Shown in pieces: positions 1,833-8,368 of a stretch of DNA of 34,017 nt; the first letter of the stretch is position 1; every line of letters starts with the position of its first letter. The notes beneath the pieces are model-generated. The model was not told the DNA's origin. It did not search any database and was given only the letters and a program-made list of their open reading frames with translations. Position numbers and translations under genes: made by a program. The DNA is from SAR86 cluster bacterium (GTDB lineage Bacteria > Pseudomonadota > Gammaproteobacteria > Pseudomonadales > Pseudohongiellaceae), in contig NVUL01000005.1 in assembly GCA_002401885.1 (NCBI GenBank), positions 27,718 through 61,734 on the forward strand, written 5' to 3'.

Positions 1833-2255
1833 ATGAATATAACGATCAATACCAAAGATGGCGTCCCGATCTACCGGCAGATAGCGAATCAGATTCGCTA
1901 CATGGTGGCGTCAAACCTGCTGCGCTCTGGCGACGAGATTTCACCAGTGCGGACACTCGCGCTGGCAATAAATGTAACGCCAAACACCGTTGTTAAGGCC
2001 TACGACGAACTGCAAGCAGCTGGCGTGATATTCAAGCGCCGCGGTGCAGGCACTTATATTTCCGATGAGCAATCGCCTCTTGCGGACCGCGAGCGCAGAC
2101 GCATCATCGAAGCCAGAATCGACACCCTTCTGGCAGAGGCTCATCAACTCGATTTCAACGCCCAAGACCTGCTTGAATTAGTAAGAGACAGACAAACGCA
2201 ACTTGGCGAGAGAAAACAGGCGCAGAACACCGTATCGGAGAAGATTGATGACTGA
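1833..2255 (+). CDS. GntR family transcriptional regulator, YtrA type
   Basis: This 140-residue protein has an N-terminal winged helix (about residues 5-75). It contains PIYRQIANQIRYMVAS, then a recognition helix region with the family motif S.VRTLA...NVTPNTV.KAYDEL, and ends in a short helical tail. The small C-terminal part without a ligand-binding FadR or HutC domain fits the YtrA subfamily, which normally controls neighbouring ABC transporter genes. The ATG at 1833 was chosen because family members start a few residues before the PIYRQI motif and AGAGGAAG lies upstream at 1811-1818. A TTG at 1785 in the same frame falls inside the promoter. The last bases overlap the start of the ABC ATPase gene (ATGACTGA), so the two are translationally coupled. 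Effector is unknown; cell-envelope stress or antibiotics are typical for the subfamily. Confidence 0.88.
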   Translation: MNITINTKDGVPIYRQIANQIRYMVASNLLRSGDEISPVRTLALAINVTPNTVVKAYDELQAAGVIFKRRGAGTYISDEQSPLADRERRRIIEARIDTLLAEAHQLDFNAQDLLELVRDRQTQLGERKQAQNTVSEKIDD

Positions 2256-3171
2256 ATTAGTAGTCGAAGTTAATAATTTATCACGCAACTTTGGCAAGAC
2301 CGACGCCCTAGACTGCGTCGACTTTAAGGCAAGCAGAGGCAAGGTCTATGGACTAGTAGGTGCCAACGGTGCTGGCAAGACCACTCTCATCAAACATTTG
2401 TTAGGGCTGTTACGTGCGAAATCGGGAAGCGTGAGAATCTTTGGCGAAGATCCGGTACGCAATCCGGAGGGAGTATTAAAGCGAATAGGCTATCTATCCG
2501 AGGACCGCGACATTCCAGAGTGGATGTCAATCGATGAGTTAATGCGCTACACCAGCGCTTACCATTCTACTTGGGATCAGAGCTATGCCGCCGAACTACT
2601 ACGCACGTTTTCCCTGGATCCAGCCAAAAAAATTAAGACACTTTCTCGAGGTATGCGGGCACAAGTTGCGCTTATAAGTGCAGTTGCGCACCGACCCGAC
2701 TTACTTATTCTCGATGAACCCTCCAGCGGTCTGGATGCTGTCGTTAGAAAAGATATTCTCAATGCAGTCGTACGCACCATTTCCGAAGAAGGCCGAACTG
2801 TGATTTTTTCCTCCCATCTGTTGGAGGAGGTGGAAAGGCTTTCAGACCATGTGACAATGATTCACGAGGGGAAAATAACCCTAGATAGTTCCTTAGAACT
2901 TATCAATAACAATCATCATTGTTCCTCGATTAGTTTTGCAGACCTACAAAATTCGCCACCGATACTAGAAGGCGTGGTGGAAATCTCAGGTGAGGGAAGA
3001 TCCTTCAGCGTTGTCCATCAAGGCTCTATTGATGCTTTTCAAGATGCCGTTAGAAAAATAGGCGGCGAAATCCTCAAATCACGTCACGCAACTTTGGAAG
3101 AAGTTTTCGTCTCGAGGGTAGGTCGCCCAGACATTGCTGAATTGGGTCAGGTCAAGGAAAATACAAAATGA
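2248..3171 (+). CDS. ABC transporter ATP-binding protein
   Basis: The product (307 residues) is a cytoplasmic ABC ATPase that should energise the permease encoded next. Visible motifs are Walker A GANGAGKTT (38-46), signature LSRGM (132-136, a variant of LSGGQ), Walker B LLILDE (152-157) followed by the D-loop SSGLD, and the switch histidine at 190. A tail of about 100 residues after the nucleotide-binding domain ends with LEEVFVSRVGR, common in the DrrA/CcmA-type exporters of the ABC-2 class. The ATG at 2248 has GGAG at 2237-2240 and overlaps the stop of the gntR gene by 8 bp. A longer frame opening at 2203 would add 15 arginine-rich residues lying inside gntR and is less likely. The substrate cannot be inferred. 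Confidence 0.9.
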   Translation: MTELVVEVNNLSRNFGKTDALDCVDFKASRGKVYGLVGANGAGKTTLIKHLLGLLRAKSGSVRIFGEDPVRNPEGVLKRIGYLSEDRDIPEWMSIDELMRYTSAYHSTWDQSYAAELLRTFSLDPAKKIKTLSRGMRAQVALISAVAHRPDLLILDEPSSGLDAVVRKDILNAVVRTISEEGRTVIFSSHLLEEVERLSDHVTMIHEGKITLDSSLELINNNHHCSSISFADLQNSPPILEGVVEISGEGRSFSVVHQGSIDAFQDAVRKIGGEILKSRHATLEEVFVSRVGRPDIAELGQVKENTK

Positions 3172-4883
3172 GAAACCCCAGCCAAGCGCTCGCATGGAGC
3201 GCATTTAGTCTGAGCTGGCCTGCATTGCTCACGCAGATTGCGGGCGTGGTTAGCGTTATATTCCTAATTGATCTTGCATTGGATTCAGGCGAAGACACGC
3301 TTGGTCTATTCAAAGCAGCTGACTTTGTTCTTCTAGTCGGTTTAGTGTTTATTTACTCAGTAACCATACACAAGAGCCACAGCGTCGCTCGCACTCGGTC
3401 CTCACTCGGCTTTCCTTATCGAACAGAGTTCTCGCTACCTGTGTCGACGCAGACTCTTTTGCTGACGCCCCTTTTGTTCTTCTGCGTGCTTACACAGATA
3501 GCAGTATTCGTCCCCGGAATTATCGTTAACCTTTTCTATTTCAACACCGAAATATCCGTCATTTCCATCAGTTTCATGATTTTTCAATTCACTATTCTGA
3601 CTCTGATGTTGAGCTGGTGGACGGAAAATGGGATCGCCAGCGTAGCAGGCTGGCTGCTCGTACTTACTCTCTACCTAAATGGACTGTTAATGCCTGAGTT
3701 TGGTCGAGTTGAAGATACTTGGGTCTTCATTGCCGCAAACCCCTCTGATTATTTTGTCGCTTTATTTTTTACCGCAGCCCTTTTGCTAGTCACTTATTTT
3801 GGCGTCAAGCAGCAGCGCAGCGGTGAGACTCTTATCGAATTTGGTAAGAGCGTGTTCAACACCACAGAACAAGGCGCCATCAGAGAAAGCCTGCCCCTGC
3901 CTATAACTGACTGCCCGACTCACTCCTCCATAGCGGCTGAGTTTTGGAAGGAACGTCAACTCCACGGAGGATATAGCGCATTGTTTGCTGGGCTAATAGG
4001 CACGGCCATTACTATAGCTATCTTAGCTATTATCAATTTCACCCTGCCAGAGGAGGCCAATCCTAACATCGAGAATGCTTGGTTTTTCCCTTTAGCTATC
4101 TACGGGTCTATGTGTGTTGGCTTAACCATTTACATGTATGGAGTACGCTATAAGAATGGCGCGATGAATGTGAGCCTGCACGATAGGACCACTCCACTTA
4201 GCACGGCCTGGCTCGCGCTCATTCGTACTGGAGTTTCTCTTTGCAGCTCGCTGCTCGCCGGCATGGTCATGGTAATAGCCATTTGGATACTAGGGCCCTT
4301 TTTGATCAGTAATTTCGAAATTATGCAAAACCACTTCTTGGAGTCTGTCAGTATCTTTTCCGGATTGAGTATCCTAGGCATGCTGTTCAGAGTTTGTATA
4401 TTACTTGTGGTCTTTCTTACAGCCCTGCTGCTGCTCGCCACATTCTTCACGTGGTCAATGTTGTACAGCAGACCCACAGCAATTGTAGTAGCGATAGTTC
4501 CTGCCTATATTTTCCTATGGGCTATCGTACTTATGGTGATCTACGGTGACGGAGACGCAGCTGCACATAGCCATGCTGTTAGCAGGGTATTCGCTAATCA
4601 TCTTTGGATACTGGTCTTGTTAATTCCAGTCTCTCTGGTAATCATGATGAGACACCTACTGCACAACTGCGTGCTTACACAAACACAGATGATCACCTTA
4701 TCGGGAATAGGAGTCGTGTTCGTGGGATTGAATTTCGCGTGGCTGTTTGGTGCGAACAATTATGACTTGCTGGCTCGCGACATCTGGATAGTACAACTGA
4801 GCTACTTGGTCATGCAGGGACTACTACCGCTGCTTGCCGCAGTGCTAGCTCTGTGGACCAGCAATAGAATTCGACATGGCTAG
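3168..4883 (+). CDS. ABC-2 type permease, large multi-pass membrane protein
   Basis: This 571-residue protein is almost entirely hydrophobic, with roughly thirteen or fourteen membrane segments by eye. Examples are near 13-38, 96-125, 130-150, 195-213 and 272-292, followed by a dense series to the C-terminus. A hydrophilic stretch near 214-265 separates two halves. A segment RTRSSLGFPYRTEFSLPVST (76-95) resembles the loop after the second helix in permeases that pair with YtrA-regulated ATPases. It overlaps the ATPase gene by four bases (ATGA), so it is the obvious membrane partner. It is larger than the usual ABC-2 permease of 250-400 residues and may hold two permease-like halves in one chain. 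The function is inferred mainly from position and hydrophobicity. Confidence 0.75.
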   Translation: MRNPSQALAWSAFSLSWPALLTQIAGVVSVIFLIDLALDSGEDTLGLFKAADFVLLVGLVFIYSVTIHKSHSVARTRSSLGFPYRTEFSLPVSTQTLLLTPLLFFCVLTQIAVFVPGIIVNLFYFNTEISVISISFMIFQFTILTLMLSWWTENGIASVAGWLLVLTLYLNGLLMPEFGRVEDTWVFIAANPSDYFVALFFTAALLLVTYFGVKQQRSGETLIEFGKSVFNTTEQGAIRESLPLPITDCPTHSSIAAEFWKERQLHGGYSALFAGLIGTAITIAILAIINFTLPEEANPNIENAWFFPLAIYGSMCVGLTIYMYGVRYKNGAMNVSLHDRTTPLSTAWLALIRTGVSLCSSLLAGMVMVIAIWILGPFLISNFEIMQNHFLESVSIFSGLSILGMLFRVCILLVVFLTALLLLATFFTWSMLYSRPTAIVVAIVPAYIFLWAIVLMVIYGDGDAAAHSHAVSRVFANHLWILVLLIPVSLVIMMRHLLHNCVLTQTQMITLSGIGVVFVGLNFAWLFGANNYDLLARDIWIVQLSYLVMQGLLPLLAAVLALWTSNRIRHG

Positions 4884-4964: not shown

Positions 4965-5894
4965 CTAATAGGCTAACCACTCAATAAAATCGATTGTCGA
5001 TTTTATTAACTTCGCCCTAGGCGTTTCTAAGAGTGCAGCATGATCGCCACCGGGCAAGATCACCCATTGTTTGTTGGGGTTCGAAATCTTCGTGAAAAAG
5101 CGCGCGTGTGCATCGGTATCTGCCAATGGATCAAACTCTGCCTGAAGCAGCAGCGTCGGCAGGATAAGCGCCTCACCATCGAGCGCATTCCACTGATGCT
5201 GCTGATTCCAATCCGCTCTAATAGGGTCTGCCTTGAGGGCAGCGGCTACATAGGTATCTATCGCATGCTGAGAAATAGAACCGGGCACGATGAAATCAGA
5301 TGCAGCTGCCGCTCTAGTAGTCGGCCTGGCTGAAGGCTCAGTCTGACTATTGCTGTGAGGAATTTCCGCATCGGGATCCGTTGGATAACCGAACAGAGTT
5401 ACGCTCACGATAGCCTCTGGATATCTTTGAGCCGTGAGTTGCGCAATCATAGAGCCGTAGGACCAGCCCCAGACGTGGGTAGCTTCGCCGTTTCTTGCGC
5501 GCAACCAGTCTAGGACTATCGATAGATCCTGCGCGGCCCGATCTGGTGTGTTCCAGCCGCTGCTATCTCTGGGAGTCTCACCATAGCCCCTAGCATCGAG
5601 AGCCCAGACGCTGTAGCCCATGTCATTAAAGCCATCCATCAGGGAAAGGTCTTCTCCTGATACCTGCAGATCGAAGTCAGGAATAGAGCTCCAGGTACGG
5701 CCGTGATGCAGGAGAATATGACCCTTCGGCTGTGCAACCGATTTCTCCCATAGCGCCATTGGGTGACCATCTGCCAAGACAGTGTGCTGAATTGCGCTGG
5801 TCTGTGCTAGCGTCGACGACATTAACAACGACAAGGCAGCAAGAACCGCGAATTGGGAAATCAGATACTTGGCAGGACTGGCTTTTAATTCCAC
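4965..5894 (-). CDS. Exported alpha/beta hydrolase
   Basis: The 309-residue product carries a signal peptide (about 1-30, ending STLAQ). An alpha/beta hydrolase fold follows, with oxyanion region HHGRTWSS (63-70), nucleophile elbow GWSYGS (Ser145), probable acid Asp255 in QAEFDPLAD, and base His285 in GGDHAALL. The full triad suggests an active esterase, lactonase or lipase-like enzyme in the periplasm. The start is a GTG at 5894. An AGGA overlapping the stop codon of the PQQ dehydrogenase gene (TAGGA) serves as ribosome binding site, and the gap between the two genes is only 9 bp. This makes it the third gene of the cytochrome-dehydrogenase operon. A role in releasing the alcohol substrate from an ester, or opening a lactone product, is possible but only inferred from position. 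Confidence 0.85.
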   Translation of the reverse strand: MELKASPAKYLISQFAVLAALSLLMSSTLAQTSAIQHTVLADGHPMALWEKSVAQPKGHILLHHGRTWSSIPDFDLQVSGEDLSLMDGFNDMGYSVWALDARGYGETPRDSSGWNTPDRAAQDLSIVLDWLRARNGEATHVWGWSYGSMIAQLTAQRYPEAIVSVTLFGYPTDPDAEIPHSNSQTEPSARPTTRAAAASDFIVPGSISQHAIDTYVAAALKADPIRADWNQQHQWNALDGEALILPTLLLQAEFDPLADTDAHARFFTKISNPNKQWVILPGGDHAALLETPRAKLIKSTIDFIEWLAY

Positions 5895-5903
5895 AGGAGC
5901 TTC

Positions 5904-7562
5904 CTAGTTGGGCAATGCGAAAGTAGACAAGGCATGTCCAGAAATTACAGAGACATATTGAACGCCATCGACACTGAAAGTCACCGGTGCCATAACGATC
6001 TGACCGCCCAGGTTGACGTTCCAAAGCAAATCGCCGCTACGCGCATCGATCGCATGAAAATAGCCTTCGCGCCCGCCAGTGAACAATAAATCTGACGCAG
6101 TCGTTAGCATGCCACTGTCACTCACATCGAACTGATCATAGGACCAGACCTCTTCACCGGTCTGCGGATCCATCGCCTTCAAGGAGGCGAAGCCAACTTC
6201 GTTGGTCCAGTTGTTAATAGGATTAGTTCTCCCGATGCCGATAGTCGGTGCTCCCGGCGCCGGTGCCAATACCGAAAAACCTCCGCCGAGGAATGCCCTG
6301 CCCGGCTGGTATTCAGATTCTTCCGGACGATAGATCGTCGCATAGTCCTGCCACGCACTAAAATAGAAGAGGCCCGTTCTTGGGCTGAATGACGGCGGGT
6401 ACCAGTTAGTACCACCCTGATTTCCAGGGAAGGTAGGCATGCCTTCCGGTTGCGGTGTTGGAATCGGCCGTCCGTTCTCATCGAGCCCACTAGACCAGTT
6501 CACCGTTACGTAGGGTTTGCCTTCGAGAAATTCGCCCGTCACTCTATCTAGCACATAGAAATAGCCGTTCCGATTTGCCCACATCATGATTTTTCTTGGT
6601 GTGCCGCGCCAGACAATATCAGCCAATACCGGCACCTGCACCGCATCATAGTCGTAGGCGTCGTTCGGCGTGAACTGGAAATACCATTTCAACTCGCCGC
6701 TATCGGCATCCAAGGCGATCACAGAGTCCGAGTAGAGATTGTCACCGGGGCGCTGGCCCGCGTTCCAATCTGGTCCGGGATTACCGACACCCCAATAAGT
6801 AAGATTCAGTTTCGGATCAAAAGAGCCGGTAATCCACACGGGTGCGCCTCCGTGCTCCCAGTCGTCTCCTTCCCAGCTGTCATGGTTCGGCTCGCCAGGT
6901 CCAGGGATAGTGTAGGTCTTCCAGGCCTCTTCGCCGGTTTCAGCGTCGTAGGCCGCAACGTATCCGCGTATGCCGAACTCGCCCCCACCTACGCCGACGA
7001 TGACTTTGTCTTTTATCACTAGCGGCGCCATCGTTACCGAATAGGCGAGATCAACATCACCCACCTCTACATCCCATAATGCGTTGCCAGTTATTCGGTC
7101 GAGCGCGATGAGGCGCGCATCTAGCGTGCCCATGAAAACTTTGTCATCTAATACAGCTACGCCACGATTATTTGCCCCACAACAAATCAGGGCATTCTCT
7201 GCAGGAACGTGCCGATATTTCCAGAAGACTCGCCCGGTTATTGCATCGACCGCCATGACGCTGTTTGGGCGTTCGGTGATATACATGATGCCGTCGACCA
7301 CTATCGGATTCGATTGCCATGCGCCAAAGACCTGATTCTGCAGGGTCCATTGCAATTTAAGGTCAGATACATTCTCCGGCGTAATCTGATCTAGTTGACT
7401 ATAACGTTGGCTCTTATAACCGCCATTATAGGTAAGCCAATTTTCCGGCTCGTCTGCCGCATTTAGAATTCGTTCGTAGGGAACTTGCGCGGATGTATTT
7501 GTCGCCGCGAGGCATATACAGAGTGCAATGCCAATTGTTCCAAATTTGTTTACTAATTTCAT
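5904..7562 (-). CDS. PQQ-dependent alcohol dehydrogenase, probably lanthanide type
   Basis: The product (552 residues) is an exported eight-bladed quinoprotein that would oxidise an alcohol in the periplasm. Residues 1-25 form a signal peptide ending NTSAQ. Key sites align with methanol/ethanol dehydrogenases: the vicinal disulfide pair Cys127-Cys128 (LICCGANNRG), metal ligands Glu195 and Asn261 (GVGNPGPDWN), catalytic Asp304, and Arg331 (ANRNGYFYVLDR). Two residues after the catalytic Asp stands Asp306 (TPNDAYDYDAV). Calcium enzymes have Ala, Ser or Thr here, while XoxF/PedH-type lanthanide enzymes have Asp. There is no fused cytochrome domain; a separate cytochrome gene lies directly upstream and overlaps by four bases (ATGA). 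The substrate is not certain. The PQQ synthesis genes must lie elsewhere, as none are in this window. Confidence 0.92.
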   Translation of the reverse strand: MKLVNKFGTIGIALCICLAATNTSAQVPYERILNAADEPENWLTYNGGYKSQRYSQLDQITPENVSDLKLQWTLQNQVFGAWQSNPIVVDGIMYITERPNSVMAVDAITGRVFWKYRHVPAENALICCGANNRGVAVLDDKVFMGTLDARLIALDRITGNALWDVEVGDVDLAYSVTMAPLVIKDKVIVGVGGGEFGIRGYVAAYDAETGEEAWKTYTIPGPGEPNHDSWEGDDWEHGGAPVWITGSFDPKLNLTYWGVGNPGPDWNAGQRPGDNLYSDSVIALDADSGELKWYFQFTPNDAYDYDAVQVPVLADIVWRGTPRKIMMWANRNGYFYVLDRVTGEFLEGKPYVTVNWSSGLDENGRPIPTPQPEGMPTFPGNQGGTNWYPPSFSPRTGLFYFSAWQDYATIYRPEESEYQPGRAFLGGGFSVLAPAPGAPTIGIGRTNPINNWTNEVGFASLKAMDPQTGEEVWSYDQFDVSDSGMLTTASDLLFTGGREGYFHAIDARSGDLLWNVNLGGQIVMAPVTFSVDGVQYVSVISGHALSTFALPN

Positions 7563-8368
7563 TCTAAACCTCGCAGGGTAAGCAGGTAGCCAATGACATC
7601 TGCCACTTCATCACTGGACATCGTCGTCGGCTGTTTACTTGGTTCGTCGCTGATCTCGTAGGAAACCAGGTCGGTTTTTTTCAATGACCGGAGCCGTTCC
7701 TGGGAATCAATTATCTGAACGGTATAGGTATCCTCATTGAGTCGTCTGCCAACGATAGTCTCTTCGTTTCGGGTTACGAGCCGAACTGGTCGATTGATCG
7801 GGAGCAGCGCAGTCGCTGGATCAAGTATGTTTCGCTGCAAGGATGCCGGCGTACGAATTGCACCGATGTTACTCAAGTCGGGAGCTGTACGCGGACCTAC
7901 CCCCCTCACTCTATGACAGTCTGCGCATTGACCTTCGCCTTCGAATAACGTCTTCCCGCGAATTGGGTCGCCAATTTTAACTGCCTCTCCCTCGGGATCG
8001 AAGCCGGCGCGAATAAAGGCAATTACTCCATTTAGTTCCTCGGCGCGCAGACTAAAGGCCGGCATACGTCCTTCTCCCGCCCCTTCACCAATAACCTGTC
8101 TTAGGTCGGTGTCGGATTGTACGGTGCGAAATTGTCCGATGCTGAGGTTAATGCCATCCACGAGCGCACCTTGTGGTCCATGGCAGAGTGCACACTGCTG
8201 GGTATACACCTGAGAGCCCGCTTCGACCGCCTCACTCGTATATTGATGGTCGCCAGCCTCCTGCGCCTGTGCCTGATGTGCAGACATCGCGATCAATACG
8301 GAGAAGGCTAGAGCGGGGAGGGTCGAGAGAGTACAGAGACGAGTAATTCTCCAAATTCGAATTTTCAT
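7559..8368 (-). CDS. Exported cytochrome c with two haem-binding motifs
   Basis: This 269-residue protein has a signal peptide (about 1-36, ending AQAQ) and two CxxCH haem sites: CALCH at 59-63 and CADCH at 148-152. The first domain (about 45-125) is a class I cytochrome with a likely axial Met in RMPAF (Met102). The second (about 135-269) contains LVTRNEETIVGRRLNEDTY and ends with EVADVIGYLLTLRG. This resembles the haem-binding domains seen in planctomycete-type dehydrogenase fusions. It is the first gene of the operon and overlaps the PQQ alcohol dehydrogenase, so it is almost certainly the electron acceptor of that enzyme, delivering electrons towards a terminal oxidase. Haem would be attached covalently in the periplasm by the Ccm system. 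Confidence 0.9.
   Translation of the reverse strand: MKIRIWRITRLCTLSTLPALAFSVLIAMSAHQAQAQEAGDHQYTSEAVEAGSQVYTQQCALCHGPQGALVDGINLSIGQFRTVQSDTDLRQVIGEGAGEGRMPAFSLRAEELNGVIAFIRAGFDPEGEAVKIGDPIRGKTLFEGEGQCADCHRVRGVGPRTAPDLSNIGAIRTPASLQRNILDPATALLPINRPVRLVTRNEETIVGRRLNEDTYTVQIIDSQERLRSLKKTDLVSYEISDEPSKQPTTMSSDEVADVIGYLLTLRGLE

Follow-up and report, generated by a model that had tools for sequence, protein, structure and literature searches.

In the 34,017-nucleotide stretch of contig NVUL01000005.1 from a SAR86 cluster bacterium analysed here (the window), we find a gene whose product is probably a periplasmic PQQ-dependent alcohol dehydrogenase (ADH), most likely lanthanide-using, that would deliver its electrons to an adjoining diheme cytochrome c (Table 1). 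Lanthanide use is the best prediction under the rule accepted in the field. The predicted function is read from the fold (by homology), the residues of the cofactor site, their conservation, and a cytochrome gene that overlaps the ADH gene. The binding of PQQ, the native use of a lanthanide, the course of catalysis and the electron path can be outlined by analogy with the family: PQQ would be held on the beta-propeller of the periplasmic quinoprotein, and a light lanthanide(III) would most likely be held by Glu195, Asn261, Asp304 and Asp306. The metal would polarise a PQQ carbonyl, Asp304 would serve as the base in the conversion of alcohol to aldehyde, and the diheme cytochrome c of the gene immediately upstream would carry the electrons to an oxidase. 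As substrate we would guess an alcohol of several carbons, not methanol.

The open reading frame of the original prediction is genuine and lies on the minus strand, which had not been given. With 559.7 bits against a curated cut-off of 480.05, its product belongs to the PQQ methanol/ethanol dehydrogenase family TIGR03075; the vicinal Cys pair, the Glu/Asn/Asp metal ligands and Arg331 that mark the family are all there. The N-terminus, judged by eye, looks like a putative Sec signal peptide. A single scan of genome contigs yielded 95 confirmed relatives, and the 80 that were kept share 47-97% identity with the window ADH. They come from metagenome-assembled genomes (MAGs) of Pseudomonadales, Pseudohongiella, OM182, other Gammaproteobacteria, Gemmatimonadota, Acidobacteria and a few others, and the relatives of the host bacterium are mostly marine. 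Matches on plasmids (573 records) are all below 60% identity for the ADH, and for the cytochrome amount to two uninformative records with less than 30% identity over half the protein.

Table 1. Coordinates, within the window, of the ADH gene, its neighbours and the codons of its cofactor site
Feature	Position	Strand	Evidence or remark
PQQ-dependent alcohol dehydrogenase, 552 aa	5904..7562 (window 7562..5904)	minus	ORF, ATG start; TIGR03075; PF01011
Diheme cytochrome c, 269 aa, predicted electron acceptor	7559..8368	minus	PF13442, PF00034; CxxCH at residues 59, 148
Alpha/beta hydrolase, third gene of the run	4965..5894	minus	Matches in 10/80 loci, only close relatives
Vicinal Cys127-Cys128 codons	7179..7184	minus	Sequence; 33-row alignment
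Glu195 codon, predicted metal ligand	6978..6980	minus	Kept among relatives
Asn261 codon, predicted metal ligand	6780..6782	minus	Kept among relatives; invariant in 33 sequences
Asp265 codon, one-residue acidic insertion	6768..6770	minus	Invariant in 33/33 sequences
Asp304 codon, proposed catalytic base and metal ligand	6651..6653	minus	Invariant in 33 sequences
Asp306 codon, lanthanide-type Asp	6645..6647	minus	HMMER and MAFFT; invariant in 33 sequences
Arg331 codon	6570..6572	minus	Arg in XoxF, PedH, MxaF, ExaA; Lys in ADH-II, Gcd

Glu195, Asn261, Asp304, Asp306 and the Cys127-Cys128 pair all lie exactly where the original prediction placed them. Its assignment of Asp306 to the metal site is borne out by HMMER, with which MAFFT agrees: the residue stands opposite the Asp of PedH (6zcv, 6zcw) and XoxF (6dam), the motif being TPNDAYDYD in the window ADH, TPHDGWDFD in PedH, TPHDEWDYD in XoxF and TPGDAWDYT in ADH-IIG. 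The Ala, Ser or Thr that had been claimed for calcium enzymes was recovered as well, as Thr in ADH-IIG and ADH-IIB (HMMER) and as Ala in Paracoccus MxaF (TPHDEWDYA) and Ser in ExaA (TPNDAWDFS) by MAFFT. Since the Glu/Asn/Asp/Asp set (195/261/304/306) is kept in 78 of the 80 relatives across 47-97% identity, Asp306 is not a chance residue; the other two are unreadable for the set, one (L037) having an ambiguous residue at 306 and one (L110) being truncated before 304. In an alignment of 33 rows, namely the window ADH and 32 of the 80 relatives, this set, the Cys pair, Asn132, Arg133, Thr177, Asp265, Arg331 and Asn386 are invariant, and the residues flanking Asp306 vary (Tyr, Trp or Phe at 305, Ala or Ser at 307).

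Eleven of the twelve sites compared are identical between the window ADH and the XoxF methanol dehydrogenase 6dam (Cys127, Cys128, Asn132, Arg133, Thr177, Glu195, Asn261, Asp304, Asp306, Arg331 and Asn386), whereas Gly129 is Asp in 6dam; the XoxF copy of S. meliloti pSymB (L113) differs also at 386, where it has Asp. The lanthanide ethanol dehydrogenase PedH of Pseudomonas putida KT2440 resembles the window ADH in fold, in the Glu/Asn/Asp/Asp set, in the Cys pair and in Arg331, and it matches the same eleven sites with the sole exception of Thr177, which is replaced by Ser. Its identity to the window ADH is 36-37% in the structural alignment. Asp265 also sets the window ADH apart, as it sits between Asn261 and the loop Trp and is an insertion relative to XoxF, PedH, MxaF and ExaA. 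Because this insertion alters the loop beside Asn261, we count it against the lanthanide reading.

The AlphaFold2 model of the window ADH, computed from the 33-row alignment with no ligands, has a pLDDT of 77 and a pTM of 0.83. Ranked by Foldseek E-value, the PedH structures 6zcv and 6zcw come first and second (TM 0.84), and a Gluconobacter ADH (0.83) and XoxF (0.84) follow, XoxF standing fourth both here and in the PDB sequence list. The best PDB match by sequence is likewise PedH (357.5 bits, HMMER), but the Thr-type ADH-IIG is second with 354.4 bits, and the Ca-type ADH-IIG and ADH-IIB reach a TM of 0.85, above the 0.84 of PedH. This near-equality with ADH-II is also counted against lanthanide use. 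The fold is good, but the confidence of the metal loops, with a mean pLDDT of 47 for residues 261-270 and 71 for 301-310, is too low for metal distances or geometry to be read from the model.

Two trees, with root positions chosen for drawing only, were computed from 55 rows (two dropped from the 57 described below) and from 51 rows (four further long rows removed). In the 51-row tree the window clade, comprising 22 rows, is set apart by a branch with support 99/97 from nine reference alcohol dehydrogenases, i.e. XoxF, MxaF, PedH, ExaA, ADH-II and two plasmid proteins; in the 55-row tree the window group comprises 23 rows, including the long row own_L007, with support 82/99. The node joining the nine references has support 84/81 and 95/94 in the 51- and 55-row trees, respectively, and among them MxaF lies beside XoxF and ExaA groups with PedH. 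In both trees the window ADH falls neither inside the XoxF clade nor inside that of PedH and ExaA (ExaF was not among the rows). The trees place it in an apparently uncharacterised clade, which neighbours the XoxF/MxaF/ExaA/PedH/ADH-II group but is distinct from it, and the literature searched yielded no biochemical study of this clade.

It is accordingly extremely improbable that the window ADH is XoxF proper or an enzyme of the PedH/ExaF type. The rank of PedH as the top PDB match by both sequence and Foldseek E-value, and of XoxF as the fourth, would favour such an assignment, but the 99/97 branch argues against it, as does the type of the accompanying cytochrome, which scores far under the cut-offs of the two partner models, MoxG (19.5 bits, cut-off 147.8) and PedF (25.9 bits, cut-off 122). 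A xoxG-type cytochrome beside the ADH was rejected on the same grounds, the protein being diheme and below the MoxG cut-off.

Asp at the second position after the catalytic Asp (+2) discriminates less than the original prediction supposed. In a 57-row MAFFT alignment that includes 17 of the 80 relatives, it is found in two XoxF, in PedH, in a PedH-like Sphingobium protein, in plasmid proteins of Sinorhizobium fredii and Paraburkholderia, in all 17 relatives, in E. coli Gcd, and in all 28 rows from the own genome (one of which, L030, has it by MAFFT and is unaligned there in the pairwise alignment). The other references have Ala (MxaF), Ser (ExaA), Thr (both ADH-II) or Glu (4cvb) at this position. 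From the own genome the alignment takes ORFs of 450 aa or more; a truncated ORF of 452 aa and three shorter ones are excluded, and further matches lie outside the alignment, e.g. a 458-aa frame on contig C129. Such enzymes usually carry Asp at +2, and since Gcd and all 28 paralogs carry it, Asp306 alone is insufficient for a rare-earth call. Only 8 of the 28 rows keep Glu195 and Asn261 besides, and three the Cys pair; it is the full site, not the single Asp, that bears the lanthanide prediction. The claim that the enzyme "therefore" uses a rare earth element holds as the best prediction, its site residues being as in XoxF, but was too strong in view of Gcd and the paralogs, of a clade apart from the characterised enzymes, and of the lanthanide-handling genes that were tested for and not found.

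We consider it unlikely that the window ADH is promiscuous for metals or has Ca or Mg as its native metal, in which case Asp306 would simply be a residue that is common across the superfamily and perhaps ancestral to it, membrane glucose dehydrogenase being another bearer. Such an enzyme would fit the Asp of Gcd and of the 28 own-genome rows, the 51-row tree, in which only four rows are without Asp at +2 and the state changes three times, and the acidic residue at the 265 position, which is common to the window clade and Gcd. However, Gcd has Asp and Val at the places of Glu195 and Asn261, and Lys at that of Arg331. XoxF, which has the full Glu/Asn/Asp/Asp set, is lanthanide-dependent. So is PedH, which is reported to be active only with lanthanides and has Asp, whereas PedE, with Ser, uses Ca (PMC5487730). 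The m-GDH enzymes bear the D-x-D motif, yet complex Ca, Mg, Zn or Sr, and even these may use lanthanides, as the authors of PMC11996626 conclude that m-GDH is facultatively lanthanide-dependent. A more elaborate version of lanthanide use, to which we give little credence, is that of a deep lanthanide-enzyme clade in which the extra carboxylate of Asp265 beside Asn261 shifts metal selectivity (e.g. towards heavier lanthanides), with its own diheme cytochrome and with some hosts making no PQQ.

It is very improbable that the window ADH is an "empty quinoprotein", that is, a quinoprotein-like protein not using PQQ. Its second-best NCBIfam model is TIGR04528, acido-empty-quinoprotein group A, which stands for quinoprotein-like proteins not using PQQ; with 505.6 bits against a cut-off of 650, the window ADH is not a member. 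The supply of PQQ bears on the same point. Among 39 genomes of the family, PqqE was detected in 13 and PqqC in 12, and of the ten that hold an ADH ortholog of at least 65% identity, six, with stated completeness of 98-100%, have no PqqB, PqqC or PqqE above cut-off (two of them have PqqB-like matches of 105 and 111 bits, cut-off 245). At E 1e-30, PqqU-like matches were found in three of these ten genomes and in two of the six, so that four near-complete genomes (G012, G029, G019, G025; loci L166-L169) combine an intact ADH cofactor site with no PqqB/C/E above cut-off and no PqqU-like match. On the other hand, the own genome has PqqB, PqqC and PqqE above their cut-offs, all on contig C85, and the Cys pair, Asn132, Arg133, Thr177 and Arg331, invariant in the 33 rows, are retained in the six orthologs of Pqq-negative genomes, which keep every tested site residue and have the diheme cytochrome upstream. 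PQQ import is the simplest reading for these hosts, and PQQ scavenging is described as widespread (PMC12124388). As to PqqU itself, the three signature residues are F, K and R in all three matches, which thus fail the published R304 criterion.

The own genome, a 3.6 Mb MAG that is 84% complete, matches the window ADH in 44 stretches at E 0.001 or better. Some are pieces of one gene; judging from these matches we regard the genome as holding a large expansion of predicted PQQ dehydrogenases. For a lut-type ABC ATPase it gave 58 matches, none above cut-off (best 183.3 bits, cut-off 302.25). The sole lanmodulin match (E 0.0036) was rejected, as it is an EF-hand protein whose EF hands lack the Pro that is the mark of lanmodulin. 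Gene absences are weak evidence here because the MAG is incomplete.

The "compact operon with its own cytochrome" of the original prediction is seen in the layout of the predicted genes, as the cytochrome ORF overlaps the ADH ORF by 4 nt and encodes two CxxCH motifs. A homologous cytochrome lies immediately upstream of the ADH in 69 of the 80 relatives, 68 of these having two CxxCH, with a spacing from about 19 nt of overlap to a gap of 44 nt (the ADH starts are partly extrapolated from the alignment). The other 11 comprise three loci cut by a contig end at or near the ADH and eight in a group of about 50% identity, where a cytochrome homolog may have diverged too far to be caught at the E 1e-5 limit.

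Lanthanide use inferred from D-x-D was already in print in 2025 for marine Pseudomonadales and ocean bacteria (PMC11996626). As reported there, D-x-D occurs in 61% of 6,328 marine PQQ dehydrogenases, and unusually large repertoires, up to 70 per genome, occur in three Acidobacteria and fifteen Pseudomonadales UBA9145 genomes; the latter resemble the present host, at the level of the order, as Pseudomonadales with many D-x-D PQQ dehydrogenases. Given this pattern, the window ADH is a sound example of a known one, in a clade for which we found no biochemistry. Our analysis adds the conserved diheme partner, Asp265 as an invariant residue next to the metal loop, and the occurrence of orthologs in genomes that are near-complete and have no PqqB/C/E above cut-off. 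If lanthanide use is true, rare-earth enzymes gain a clade from Gammaproteobacteria, Gemmatimonadota and Acidobacteriota MAGs. The clade would also test, outside XoxF and PedH, the D-x-D rule that is used in print for most ocean PQQ enzymes; a Ca enzyme would weaken the ocean-wide estimates of lanthanide dependence.

Several observations concern the surroundings of the gene and its paralogs. Between the hydrolase and a further PQQ dehydrogenase gene, on the opposite strand (2203-4883, plus), stand genes for an ABC ATPase and for a protein of 571 aa that has no Pfam match and is probably its permease. The further gene (L025; 1 to about 1475, minus, extending past the window, open frame 689 aa) encodes a Gcd-like protein in which the catalytic Asp is replaced by Asn (HEIWNFD) and Asp at +2 is retained. 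This N-x-D form is present in 7 of the 28 aligned own-genome rows. In 20 of the 80 loci a homolog of 76-94% identity that bears the N-x-D motif stands downstream of the ADH, on the strand of the latter, and in one of them (L044) its open frame starts 4 nt past the end of the ADH frame. PDB 22vi, whose molecule one listing calls ADH-IIG and whose title reads PQQ-dependent alcohol dehydrogenase detoxifying DON, scores near 9m2c, 4mh1, 7wmd and 4cvb against an own-genome paralog.
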